A DNA stretch of 6,982 nt from a bacterium (lineage in GTDB: Bacteria > JACRDZ01 > JAJRWM01), in NCBI GenBank assembly GCA_024276815.1, contig JAJRWM010000012.1, forward strand, positions 1-6,982, given 5' to 3'. Made by a program: the position numbers and the translations under genes. Position 1 is the stretch's first letter. Every line of letters starts with the position of its first letter. Under the pieces are notes generated by a model, which was not told the origin of the DNA, searched no databases, and saw only the letters and a list, made by a program, of their open reading frames with translations. Positions 895 to 4,830 of the stretch are shown here, piece after piece.

Positions 895-2744
895 CAGCAA
901 TCAGGATTAATCAATACAAAGAATTTCTCCCGCTGGTGATCTTTGGCCTGGTTTGGTCTTTCTACCTGAAGCTGACGTCAGCGGTTATCTGTGTGGGCGA
1001 TCCCCCGGAACTGATCGCCGCCGGGAAACTGCTGGGGGTAGCCCATCCCACCGGTTACCCGCTCTTCACAATTTTGCTGAAAATATTCTGCCAACTTCCG
1101 CTGGGCGGCATTGCCTGGCGGGCAAACCTCTTATCAACCCTCTCGGGCAGTGCGGCAGCGCTACTGTTTTTCTTGTTATGCCGACACCTTTACGATAACC
1201 AGACCGCTTTCTTCGCCACAACATTCTGGGTCTTTTCCACAACCTTCCAGGGCCAGAGCCTCTGCGCCCGGGTTTACGTTTTAAATATTTTCCTGACCCT
1301 GATGGTCCTCTATCCGCTGGCAACCAACAAGCGGAATCATTATTTAAGCCTGGTCGCCGTCACGATATTCGGCGTTGCCCTCGGTAATCATTTCGCTTTT
1401 TTAATCATGTTTCTTCCTTTGTATCTTTGGTGGGGTCGCGATCTTTTTCGGCTCAAAAGACTGATTACCGCCCTGGTCATAATCACCATGGGACTGGGAT
1501 TATACCTGGAGCTGCCCATCCGCTCTTCAGCCGATCCGCCAGCCAACTGGGATAAGCCGGCTACCTGGGAAAGCTTCAAAGGGGTTGTCACTCAGCGAAG
1601 ATACCGCGGCAAGATGTTGCAGCGCGACTTCACCTCGACGGTATGGCTGGTAAAAAAGATAGCGACCTCGCTCAGATATGAGTTCCGCCTGGGCGGGGTG
1701 GTGTTGCTTGTGACGGGCTTAATCATTTTGATCATCAAACCCGGCGGTCAGGTTGTCTGGCTGTTTTTGCTCTCGGGTATCCTGAACGCGCTTTTACATA
1801 TCATTTATGGTAAACCTTTTGAGTTTCACCATGTTTACCTACTGCCGTTTTATCTCTCCGGCCTGATGTTAATCGCGCACGCTCTCTCCTGGTTATTCAG
1901 TGTTGCCAACCGGAAAACCTGGCTGACAGCTGGTTTGGCGCTCGTTCTGTTTGTCATGATCGGGTTCCTGGAAAAATTCAGTTACCCAATTGCTAACCGG
2001 CGGAGCTATTACCTGGCAGCCGATTACGGCCATAACCTGCTGATGTCGCTCGCGCCCGGCTCAACCCTGGCAATGCAGGGCGATGCGGTTACATTTATCG
2101 TTGAGTATCTGGTCAACGTGGAAGGTAAGCGTCCCGACCTGACCTGGCGGCATTTAAGCCAAATAAGTGTCCGCGATTCATCCCGCAAAGTGTTTTTCCC
2201 GTTTGACCTGATCTCCTATTTTCGTCCCTATTTAAAAAAGAACGAAAAAATTCAGCAGCGGGGCCTGCTGTTTGAGATAGTCGGGGCAAACACGGCCCGC
2301 AAGAATTTTCAGCCCTTTTTCCGCTGGCGTAACACTGGCGGGATAGTTGAAAAATATAACCGGCTTCTGCTTGCCGAGTGTTACTTCCTGTTCGGACTTG
2401 AGAGTTACCAAAGCAATCTCGCCAAGGCCGAGTTATATTTTCGTAAATGCCTGGAATGCGCGCCAAAAAACATCCGCTACTATAATTTTATCTCCGCTAT
2501 CTATTTTGAGAAAGGATATTACGCCGGCGCGATTGAAGTTCTGTTTAAAGCCAGTAAACTGCCGCCGGAGAATCATTTCATCTACTACAACTTGGGCAAC
2601 GCCTATAAACTGCTGGGAGATTATCGGCGGGCGAAATTTTATTATGAAAAAACGTTGCGGCTCAAACCTGATTTCCCAAAAGCCCGATCCAAGCTGGACC
2701 AGATAAGCTTACAGCTTGAGGAAATTACGCTTCGCGACTTTTAA
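891..2744 (+). CDS. DUF2723 family membrane protein with C-terminal TPR repeats (putative GT-C glycosyltransferase)
   Basis: The product has 617 residues. The N-terminal part has about ten hydrophobic segments, starting near residue 12. The family signature follows the first segment: GDPPELIAAGKLLGVAHPTGYPL, residues 36-58, with D37, E40, H52 and P53, then RANLLSTLSG. This matches DUF2723, a GT-C-like group related to protein O-mannosyltransferases, which are thought to use polyprenyl-phosphate sugars at the outer membrane face; the acidic residues after the first helix are typical catalytic positions. From about residue 493 to the end there are roughly three TPR units (for example YYNLGNAYKLLGDYRRAKFYY), giving a protein-binding tail. 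ATG 891 lacks a Shine-Dalgarno but overlaps a small ORF's stop as ATGA. The gene is separated from the operon at 2943 by a 198-bp gap with its own promoter, though both fit a shared glycan pathway. The acceptor is unknown. Confidence 0.85.
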   Translation: MTAIRINQYKEFLPLVIFGLVWSFYLKLTSAVICVGDPPELIAAGKLLGVAHPTGYPLFTILLKIFCQLPLGGIAWRANLLSTLSGSAAALLFFLLCRHLYDNQTAFFATTFWVFSTTFQGQSLCARVYVLNIFLTLMVLYPLATNKRNHYLSLVAVTIFGVALGNHFAFLIMFLPLYLWWGRDLFRLKRLITALVIITMGLGLYLELPIRSSADPPANWDKPATWESFKGVVTQRRYRGKMLQRDFTSTVWLVKKIATSLRYEFRLGGVVLLVTGLIILIIKPGGQVVWLFLLSGILNALLHIIYGKPFEFHHVYLLPFYLSGLMLIAHALSWLFSVANRKTWLTAGLALVLFVMIGFLEKFSYPIANRRSYYLAADYGHNLLMSLAPGSTLAMQGDAVTFIVEYLVNVEGKRPDLTWRHLSQISVRDSSRKVFFPFDLISYFRPYLKKNEKIQQRGLLFEIVGANTARKNFQPFFRWRNTGGIVEKYNRLLLAECYFLFGLESYQSNLAKAELYFRKCLECAPKNIRYYNFISAIYFEKGYYAGAIEVLFKASKLPPENHFIYYNLGNAYKLLGDYRRAKFYYEKTLRLKPDFPKARSKLDQISLQLEEITLRDF

Positions 2745-2759
2745 ACTCGTTCGCAAGGT

Positions 2760-2794
2760 TGCTCACTTATGTCTTGGTAATACTTAAGCGAGCA
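2760..2794. other. Imperfect hairpin after the DUF2723 gene
   Basis: TGCTCACTTA at 2760-2769 pairs with TAAGCGAGCA at 2785-2794 with one A-C mismatch in ten positions, around a 15-nt loop. It starts 15 bp after the stop codon. No T run follows, so it is not a clear intrinsic terminator. It lies directly before the first 52-bp repeat unit and may belong to the same structured region. Confidence 0.35.
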
Positions 2795-2901
2795 CTGTTG
2801 CGAGCGGTTTTGAGCTGCCGAAGGCAAATATCCCCAGGTCGCAGACCTGTTGCGAGCGGTTTTGGTGTGCCGAAGGCAAGCATCTTCAAACCGTAGGTTT
2901 G
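2795..2901. repeat. Two 52-bp-spaced direct repeats, each with GNA-triloop hairpins
   Basis: Segments 2795-2827 and 2847-2879 match at 30 of 33 positions (period 52 bp); the only differences are AGC versus GTG at 2813-2815 and 2865-2867. Shared parts are CTGTTGCGAGCGGTTTTG and TGCCGAAGGCAA. The second holds a hairpin, TGCC-GAA-GGCA. Each unit then ends in a second hairpin with a 6-bp stem and 3-nt loop: CAGGTC-GCA-GACCTG at 2835-2849 and CAAACC-GTA-GGTTTG at 2887-2901. These stems differ at three pairs, and every difference is compensated. All four loops are G-N-A closed by C-G, a loop type known to be unusually stable. The 3' arm of the first hairpin runs into the second unit. No ORF is evident here. 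Confidence 0.85.
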
Positions 2902-2910
2902 TGGTATAAT
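2902..2910 (+). promoter_or_regulatory. Extended -10 promoter (TGGTATAAT) for the glycan operon
   Basis: TGGTATAAT is a perfect extended -10 element (TGn plus consensus TATAAT at 2905-2910). No good -35 box exists at 16-18 nt spacing, which fits an extended -10 promoter that can work without one. Transcription would begin near 2917, giving a leader of about 25 nt before the TTG start at 2943. The hairpin of the second 52-bp repeat ends one base upstream, occupying the usual spacer and -35 zone, so it could influence promoter opening. Confidence 0.65.
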
Positions 2911-2942
2911 ATCTGATATTTTATCTGGTTGAGAAAAAGCAC

Positions 2943-3872
2943 TTGAATAATAAAAAATGGGAACCTGAAGCCAAATATCTCATTGTCAACGCTGATGACT
3001 TCGGCTTGTCCGAGGGGATAAACAAGGCCATTGCTCAGGCGCATGATTTCGGCATCCTGACCAGCGCCACGATTTTAGCCAACATGCCGGCGACCGGACA
3101 GGTCGCGGAGCTTTGCCGGGATAATCCCGGTCTGGGCGTCGGGGTGCATCTCAACTTTATCAGGGGAAAACCGCTGGCCGAACCGGAGAGAATCAAAAGC
3201 CTGCTGAATAATCAGGGGCGGTTCGTGCAAAAAACCGGCGTGTTTTTGCGGCGGCTGTTCCTGGGTAAAATAAAGCGCGAGGAACTCGAAGAGGAATTAT
3301 CGGCTCAAGTGCGAAAGGTTATGGATCTGGGCATAACCCCCACTCATCTTGACAGTGAAAACAATCTGCACCTGTTGCCGCCGGTAACCGAAGCCTTGAT
3401 CAGCGTGGCGGATAAATTCAAGATAAAAGCCGTCCGTTTAACGAATGAAATGGCTTTAACGAGAATTATCAGGCGTAAAAGCAACTGGTTCAATCCTCAG
3501 TTTCGTAAAATGCGGTTTTGGACCATGTGTTCAAGCCTGGCGCGTTTGAAAGTCGAAAACGCCGGGTTGAGGTTTGCTGATTATTTCTGGGGCATAAGAG
3601 ATAGCGGTCAGATGAACGGAGCGGCTTACAAGGCGCTTTTGCCGGGACTTCCCGTGGGGGTTACCGAAATAATGACTCACCCCGGATTTGTGGATGATGA
3701 GCCGGGAAATTTCTCCCAAAATATTGGCGGGTATGATATCAATAAGAAGCGTGAAGATGAGTTCCATGGTCTGGTCGCGCCCGGCTTAAAAGAGATTATC
3801 CGTAAACGGAATATTACTTTAATAAATTATCGCGATCTATGCGAGCTTAAAAAAAGGAGTTCCCATGAGTGA
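2943..3872 (+). CDS. ChbG/HpnK (YdjC) family carbohydrate deacetylase
   Basis: The product has 309 residues, a normal length for the YdjC/ChbG/HpnK family of metal-dependent deacetylases acting on N-acetylated sugars or hopanoid sugar intermediates. Motifs in order: LIVNADDFGLSEGIN with D18-D19, GVGVHLNF with H69, THLDSENNLHLLP with H135, D137 and H143, and EIMTHPGF with H246. The third motif is often HxDxHxHxH; here it is HxDxExNxH, with E139 and N141 in place of His. The start is TTG 2943, since no in-frame ATG lies before the first motif; only a weak AGAAAAAG-like site precedes it. It is the first gene of an operon driven by the TGGTATAAT at 2902, and its end overlaps the GT2 start by 8 bp. 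Hopanoid involvement is possible, but no other hpn gene is visible. The glycan context favours an amino-sugar substrate. Confidence 0.87.
   Translation: MNNKKWEPEAKYLIVNADDFGLSEGINKAIAQAHDFGILTSATILANMPATGQVAELCRDNPGLGVGVHLNFIRGKPLAEPERIKSLLNNQGRFVQKTGVFLRRLFLGKIKREELEEELSAQVRKVMDLGITPTHLDSENNLHLLPPVTEALISVADKFKIKAVRLTNEMALTRIIRRKSNWFNPQFRKMRFWTMCSSLARLKVENAGLRFADYFWGIRDSGQMNGAAYKALLPGLPVGVTEIMTHPGFVDDEPGNFSQNIGGYDINKKREDEFHGLVAPGLKEIIRKRNITLINYRDLCELKKRSSHE
3855..3859 (+). promoter_or_regulatory. Strong ribosome binding site fixing the GT2 start at 3865
   Basis: AGGAG at 3855-3859 lies 5 nt before ATG 3865. It marks the true start of the GT2 gene, upstream of the in-frame TAG at 3913. Downstream TTG 3940 has no comparable site. 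Confidence 0.8.
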
Positions 3873-4830
3873 TATTTATTGCTCAATAGTTGTCCCTTTT
3901 TATAATGAAGCGTAGAGCATTCCCGAACTGTATCAGAGATTGTCCGAGGTAATGAAAAAACAAAAGCAAGGCTATGAACTTATTTTTGTTAATGACGGTA
4001 GCCTTGACCGAAGCGCTGAAATCCTTGAGGGAATACAGCGGCGGGATAAAAATGTTGTGGTCATCAACTTTTCCCGTAACTTTGGTCAGACAGCCAGCCT
4101 GGCGGCCGGCTTCGCCAGGGTGCGGGGAGAAATCATCATCGCCATGGATGGCGATCTGCAAAGCGCTCCTGAAGAAATCCCCGCCTTCCTCGAAAAAATA
4201 GAAGAGGGCTACGATGTTGTCAGCGGCCGGCGCGTTAACCGCAAGATATCGTTTTTCAGCCGCAAATTACCATCGCTGATCGCTAACAAGATCATGGCCA
4301 AACTTTCCGGCGTGCCACTGCATGATTTTGGCGCCACTTTCAAAGCCTACCGAAGATTTATCATCGATAATATTCAGCTCTACGGAGAGTTACACCGTTT
4401 TATTCCGGCGCTGGCCAGCAACCTGACCACTAAAATTGTGGAGATTCCGATTAGTGACGCTGAACGCCAGCATGGAAAATCAAATTACGGTATTTCACGA
4501 ACTTTCCGGGTCATATTTGATTTAATAACGGTTAAATTCCTCCTGAGTTTTTCCACCAGGCCGTTGCATGTGTTTGGTATGCTGGGCCTTTTGAGTGGAG
4601 GGTCGGGTTTTCTGATCCTGGTATTCATGGCGGCGAAAAAGTTGATTCTGCATGTCAACATAGGGACAGAGCCAATGTTACTGTTAGGCGCAATCCTGAG
4701 CATCATCGGGGTTCAGTTCGTCAGCCTGGGGGTTATCGCCGAGATTGTGGTCCGCACTTATTATGAGTCACAAGACAAGAAAATTTACCATATTAAAAGC
4801 GTTTTTGAGCATAACCAGGATAGTGAATGA
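3865..4830 (+). CDS. GT2 family membrane-anchored glycosyltransferase (ArnC/DPM1/GtrB-like), interrupted by an in-frame TAG at codon 17
   Basis: From ATG 3865 the frame reads MSDIYCSIVVPFYNEA, then TAG, then SIPELYQRL and on to TGA at 4828-4830, 321 codons in all. VVPFYNEAxSIPEL is the first conserved GT2 motif, and a Glu codon (GAG) is the likely ancestor of the TAG. The rest is intact: VNDGS with D44, the metal-binding MDGDLQ with D95 and D97, GATFKAY near 156, RQHGKS at 201-206, and two C-terminal membrane segments near 234-258 and 270-296. This layout and length fit enzymes that move a sugar from a nucleotide donor to a polyprenyl phosphate at the inner membrane face. Without readthrough the only product would be a protein restarting near TTG 3940 (296 residues), lacking the first nucleotide-binding strand. 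It is therefore either a recent pseudogene, a recoded gene or a base error. It overlaps both neighbours. Confidence 0.85.
3913..3915 (+). other. In-frame amber codon inside the GT2 reading frame
   Basis: TAG follows TATAATGAAGCG (YNEA) in the only frame that continues with good GT2 homology on both sides. One base change (T to G) restores GAG and the motif YNEAESIPEL. No frameshift is needed. Confidence 0.9.

Follow-up and report, generated by a model that had tools for sequence, protein, structure and literature searches.

The two tandem hairpin units in the window (the whole 6,982-nt stretch of DNA that was analysed) are the right half of a palindromic element at approximately 2704-2901, and a covariance model detects 116 arms of this kind in the source genome. 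The arms group into about 69 loci, mostly between genes, and are best read as lineage-specific palindromic repeats: a known kind of sequence in bacteria, but a new family with unusual modular, compensated stems. We somewhat favor the view that the family is non-autonomous, of REPIN/BIME type, and uses DNA hairpins.

Results

A hairpin repeat family in one genome

We built the covariance model from 43 arms (alignment A1) and searched the genome of the uncultured source bacterium (2.39 Mb, 91% complete, 246 contigs) at an E threshold of up to 0.01. The closest matches to an ArgF homolog used for taxonomy are only about 50-56% identical and come from many different phyla. Five of the roughly 69 loci (116 arms) fall inside predicted ORFs, and a DNA query matched dozens of places in the same genome. 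Neither the model nor the DNA query returned any arm from a set of 59 other genomes that included three of the same phylum. Arm or centre patterns had no match in broader collections of genome contigs and viral contigs, the element had none in phage and plasmid collections, and no Rfam family matched it above the gathering score. The first-pass annotation had proposed, from the window, that a small family of repeats combines a constant core with a hairpin that varies in a compensated way, and had asked for further copies; these proved numerous in the source genome, within the limits of distribution just given. Chance similarity or simple local tandem duplication, which the presence of only two units within the window might suggest, has a negligible probability: the core pattern is expected 0 times in the window by chance and is present in 2 units, and the copies across the genome rule this explanation out.

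The consensus element consists of an inverted left arm, a centre TACTCGGCTATGTATTAGGTAATACTTAAGCGAGCAACTC of about 40 nt, and a right arm, with arms sometimes repeated in tandem (five units in C137, three in C223, and two in the window). Each arm runs from a root through an inner hairpin and a linker to a terminal hairpin at its outer end, and the roots differ by side, with TACGAGGCGG on the left and TTGCGAGCGG on the right. Every match to the model reaches its last position (53), and truncated matches lose the root, not the outer hairpin. GNA triloops closed by C-G are very stable in DNA, as in d(GCGNAGC), and the first-pass annotation had described the loops of the two units as G-N-A closed by C-G. 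Across the family GNA loops are indeed dominant, but the closing pairs also include T-A and G-C, and a second class of hairpins carries a CACC loop. An alternative inner hairpin, CGCGAAGCG, contains GCGAAGC.

The element in the window

Both 52-nt tandem units were confirmed where the first-pass annotation had placed them (Table 1), each running from a root TTGCGAGCGGTTTTG through an inner hairpin and an ~8-nt linker to a 6-bp terminal hairpin whose 3-nt loop is GCA in unit 1 and GTA in unit 2. Three base pairs separate their terminal stems, CAGGTC/GACCTG and CAAACC/GGTTTG, and each difference is compensated (two changes of G-C to A-T and one of T-A to C-G). The units had been said to diverge only in this stem; the stems do differ, but so do the unpaired parts, at 7 of 37 positions (87% over 38 nt). 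The left arm overlaps the 3' end of a TPR/TMEM260-like gene (891-2744) and supplies its last codons and stop (2742-2744), and its root is predicted to pair with positions 2798-2808 of the right arm. The centre of this copy is related to TACTCGGCTATGTATTAGGTAATACTTAAGCGAGCAACTC, the conserved centre of other copies. The promoter-like TGGTATAAT starts at the first base past the last hairpin, upstream of a YdjC-family gene (2943-3872); it is absent from the list returned by a TTGACA-TATAAT promoter scan.

Table 1. Parts of the element in the window and the promoter-like sequence that follows it
Feature	Position	Strand	Evidence
Left arm, inverted	2704-2756	-	Covariance model match, E 1.2e-11; hairpin listing
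Left-arm terminal hairpin AAGCT-tac-AGCTT	2705-2717		Hairpin listing
Left-arm inner hairpin CGC-ttc-GCG	2728-2736		Hairpin listing
Left-arm root CTCGTTCGCAA	2746-2756		
Centre/linker GGTTGCTCACTTATGTCTTGGTAATACTTAAGCGAGCACTG, ~41 nt	2757-2797	+	BLAST match over 2768-2849; alignment by eye
Right-arm unit 1, root TTGCGAGCGG	2798-2849	+	Model match, E 7.6e-16
Unit 1 inner hairpin TGCC-GAA-GGCA	2816-2826	+	
Unit 1 terminal hairpin CAGGTC-GCA-GACCTG	2835-2849 (stem 2835-2840/2844-2849)	+	
Right-arm unit 2, root TTGCGAGCGG	2850-2901	+	Model match, E 6.2e-17
Unit 2 inner hairpin TGCC-GAA-GGCA	2868-2878	+	
Unit 2 terminal hairpin CAAACC-GTA-GGTTTG	2887-2901 (stem 2887-2892/2896-2901)	+	
Promoter-like TGGTATAAT, extended -10 form	2902-2910	+	Sequence

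Two other features of the window were recorded. A second dispersed repeat family occupies 138-300, with a tandem 28-mer TTCTTGAACAACGCGAATGATAGATA followed by GGGAGCGGTCTTTTTT and TTTTAGCGAAGTCTAAAAGAGTTACCCC, and related stretches lie on at least 10 other contigs, several of them fused directly to hairpin arms. At 3865-4830, a family 2 glycosyltransferase frame contains one in-frame TAG at codon 17 (NEA*SIPEL), which could reflect gene breakage, misassembly, or recoding.

Covariation of the terminal stems

With arms anchored on the root, we picked terminal hairpins by their outer pairs and loop only, leaving the four inner pairs unselected. In 48 root-anchored arms, 186 of 192 inner stem cells (97%) are Watson-Crick, compared to 52% with the 3' letters shuffled, and eight perfect stem types occur: CAGGTC, CAAGTC, CAAGCG, CAGGCT, CAAACC, CAGGAC, CAAACT, and CAAGCT. 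Of the 22 anchored arms not included in this set, most have a different hairpin, chiefly CAGGCC-CACC-GGCCTG, and a few are degenerate. Alignment A1 has 98.1% of cells paired in the terminal helix and 85.7% in the inner helix, with a covariation score of 0.510, whereas shuffles score 0.183 and slid structures no more than 0.178. In the same alignment, neither pairs with a double change nor pairs with further pair types exceed the shuffles, so the evidence for covariation lies in the score, the share of paired cells, and the cells with a double change, and such counts are inflated by the common ancestry of copies. Among 38 further arms outside the model, which are not fully independent because they were found by a model rewarding pairing, 140 of 152 inner cells (92%) are Watson-Crick and 7 more are G-T. 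Further stems have a flipped outer pair (for example GAGGTG/CACCTC, GAAGCA/TGCTTC, and CTGGCT/AGCCAG). The first-pass annotation had asked whether stem positions in additional copies vary without compensation, and in both sets of arms compensated variation prevails.

Position relative to genes

Outer arms face gene 3' ends in 45 cases and gene starts in 33. Nine of the 45 begin at the base that follows the stop codon; in 12 the reading frame runs into the arm and ends there, usually with TGA at the hairpin/linker border; and a further six have a gap value of 2-6. A gap of zero accounts for nine of the 28 gaps up to 50 nt (p~2.5e-9 versus a uniform gap, a simple null with genes called by longest ORF). 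This abutment may reflect an insertion preference or the loss of other spacer DNA while hairpins were kept. Start-facing arms lie mostly 25-160 nt from the gene start, and of the 27 that are more than 20 nt from the gene, five show an exact TATAAT no farther than 30 nt away, against an expectation of 0.55. Gaps with an element comprise 35 tandem, 13 convergent, and 6 divergent cases versus 29, 7, and 10 among gaps without one, a weak bias toward tandem and convergent gaps.

Discussion

Hairpins that so often start right at a stop codon might work at the RNA level, stabilising the 3' end of the upstream transcript or terminating it, and hairpins of the CACC class, which are GC-rich and followed by TTTTAA when read from the gene, would suit such a role. 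We consider an RNA function unlikely. Perfect terminal hairpins are equally common in arms facing 3' ends (33 of 45) and in arms facing starts (25 of 33, Fisher p=1), and the mismatched cells on the arm strand comprise about five T-G and four A-C, with no G-U preference on the transcript strand. Most terminal hairpins have no T-run, a terminator scan of window 2500-3100 finds no GC-rich hairpin with a T-run, TTTTAA occurs only at the CACC-loop subtype in other copies, and the zero matches among Rfam families also speak against this function. The arm's outward strand carries the GNA loops irrespective of gene direction, which, together with equal pairing in both directions and the lack of a G-U bias, favors a role at the DNA level; selection on structure in RNA, one of the options in the first-pass annotation, is not supported. 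That annotation had also placed the repeats just upstream of a promoter. In the window TGGTATAAT does follow directly after the hairpin, and exact TATAAT near the hairpin in start-facing arms could likewise indicate a protein-binding or regulatory site upstream of promoters, as could the binding of host proteins by known REPs and BIMEs. Such a site is nevertheless improbable, in that more arms face gene 3' ends than starts and the variable stem sequence is ill-suited to sequence-specific double-strand binding.

The compensated changes had been taken to point to selection on structure, which is not established by the family as a whole: at low divergence, terminal stems change at least as fast as the unpaired flank (0.22 versus 0.15 and 0.30 versus 0.22 per site, from few unit pairs) yet stay paired, whereas selection for pairing alone would slow the stems. 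Unit 2 of the window, for example, differs from a C238 unit at one flank site but at three stem pairs. Stems that diverge fast and remain paired also fit an exchange of hairpin modules or template switching, both of which give fast, paired change. Replication template switching has been reported to create compensated stems, and to create and maintain perfect stems through multibase compensated changes (PMC8794818). The compensation could accordingly be mutational, arising by template switching (quasipalindrome correction) or hairpin-to-hairpin conversion with no structural selection, in elements that may be inert. Double transversions (C-G to G-C, T-A to A-T), which have no wobble path, and a loop inverted relative to the others (TTC, in C7) agree with this account, to which we give a substantial chance, if one well short of even. 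It is weakened by the scarcity of low-divergence pairs and by the rarity of loop inversion, an expected by-product of template switching of which there is about one clear case. Linker and stem types are also partly tied (ATGGT with CAAGCG; TTAAAA with CAGGAC/CAGGCC), and such a limited stem menu, with rare loop inversion, favors subfamilies and module exchange, not free rewriting. A mobile DNA family with a replaceable terminal hairpin, in which hairpin exchange or template switching rewrites both stem sides at once, would show covariation of RNA strength at the DNA level without RNA function; we regard this as possible but doubtful.

The REPIN/BIME-type reading is supported by copy number and dispersal, the inverted two-arm layout, tandem expansion, and compensated stems, and by arms that abut stop codons mostly between tandem or convergent genes, as for REPs. 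Pairing independent of gene direction argues for DNA and not mRNA, and relics of Y1 transposases in the genome count for this reading as well. Counted against it are the lack of an intact Y1/RAYT gene, the position of the relics away from elements, the weak gap bias, and the fact that no empty site or target duplication is shown, as there is no close relative with the family to compare. Y1 transposase matches in the genome are limited to a C210 fragment with a TAG and a C90 ORF (L083 1387-1848), which weakly matches a REP-associated tyrosine transposase and has an unrecognisable HUH motif. The covariance model has no match on C90 or C210, so neither relic adjoins an element. Ahead of the C90 ORF lies GCGGAAGCAACTCTTTGTCAAGC, a sequence similar to part of the element centre. 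With the genome 91% complete and in 246 contigs, the mobilising enzyme could be missing from the assembly. No reverse transcriptase (RVT_1) match was found in the genome, and mobilisation by such an enzyme was rejected.

Under the REPIN/BIME-type reading, we propose that copies would spread as folded single-stranded DNA, the outward strand bearing the GNA hairpins. A transposase of HUH/Y1 type that binds hairpins would recognise these copies and may now be lost, degenerate, or encoded in an unassembled part of the genome. Hairpins with intact stems would be those copied or kept, while the stem sequence would be free to change as copies exchanged modules or as templates were switched between the arms of a hairpin, and copies would survive where genes are undamaged, between a stop codon and the next promoter. 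The mobile palindrome suggested in the first-pass annotation is most likely correct as a (formerly) mobile palindrome, although movement itself was not observed.

Like REPINs, or REP doublets, the elements have two inverted units around a spacer, are extragenic, form hairpins, and occur in tandem clusters. Compensatory changes on both hairpin sides have been reported for REPINs of Pseudomonas fluorescens SBW25 and others, but REPINs are built on a conserved REP core that is linked to a RAYT gene (PMC3116915). In the present family each arm contains a pair of small hairpins, it is the terminal stem that varies, and no working RAYT was found. With REPs (GTAG/CGTC tags) and BIMEs the family shares mosaic arrays and small palindromes that lie between tandem or convergent genes (PMC3733652, PMC8266576). 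REPs are reported to abut genes, frequently at the 3' end, and to provide stop codons (PMC3733652); the present family differs in its 6-bp stems with a 3-nt loop and its occurrence in a single genome. Many dispersed extragenic palindromic copies, inverted doublets with a spacer, and mosaic arrays are thus all present. However, there is no unpaired GTAG or CGTC at the palindrome base: the bases before the terminal hairpin are ATCCT, ATGGT, TTAAAA, and similar, and GTAG arises solely within the hairpin, where the GTA loop is followed by G. Nor does the 91%-complete genome contain an intact RAYT gene (HUH, Y1) flanked by repeats. For these two reasons the family should not be filed as REP, though it appears to work like a REPIN or BIME. 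As in MITEs, there are terminal inverted repeats, the left and right arms being inverted copies of one arm unit.

ERIC and 67 previously undescribed stem-loop families (PMC2267715) are likewise dispersed intergenic repeats with a common secondary structure, but those families are defined by sequence, and interchangeable compensated stems are unmentioned in the text of that paper. Mitochondrial repetitive hairpin-forming and double-hairpin elements also consist of tandem small hairpins dispersed in intergenic DNA, and two types differ by complementary substitutions; their stems are mostly conserved and their loops variable, the reverse of the present family (PMC2800124). Two other genomes have an excess of the hairpin pattern that proved to come from other repeats with fixed stems and not from family members. 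G110 (L084-L112 even) has an intergenic multi-hairpin repeat, present in about 80 copies, in which the hairpin CAAATCGAAGATTTG is fixed, and G173 (L085-L113 odd) has a dispersed repeat CAAATCGCAGGTTTG followed by TAAAATAGCGAGGTTTTTAATCGCTATTTTACGG. Both share with our family many dispersed copies containing a CARRYY-GNA-RRYYTG hairpin, but each has one or two dominant stem sequences and unrelated surroundings, and the likeness is probably convergent.

Compensated changes are often taken to prove that an RNA structure is functional. With about a hundred copies in one genome and strong covariation independent of the direction of neighbouring genes, this family provides a natural test of how far DNA-level processes can yield covariation, and it adds a palindromic repeat family to a poorly sampled phylum.
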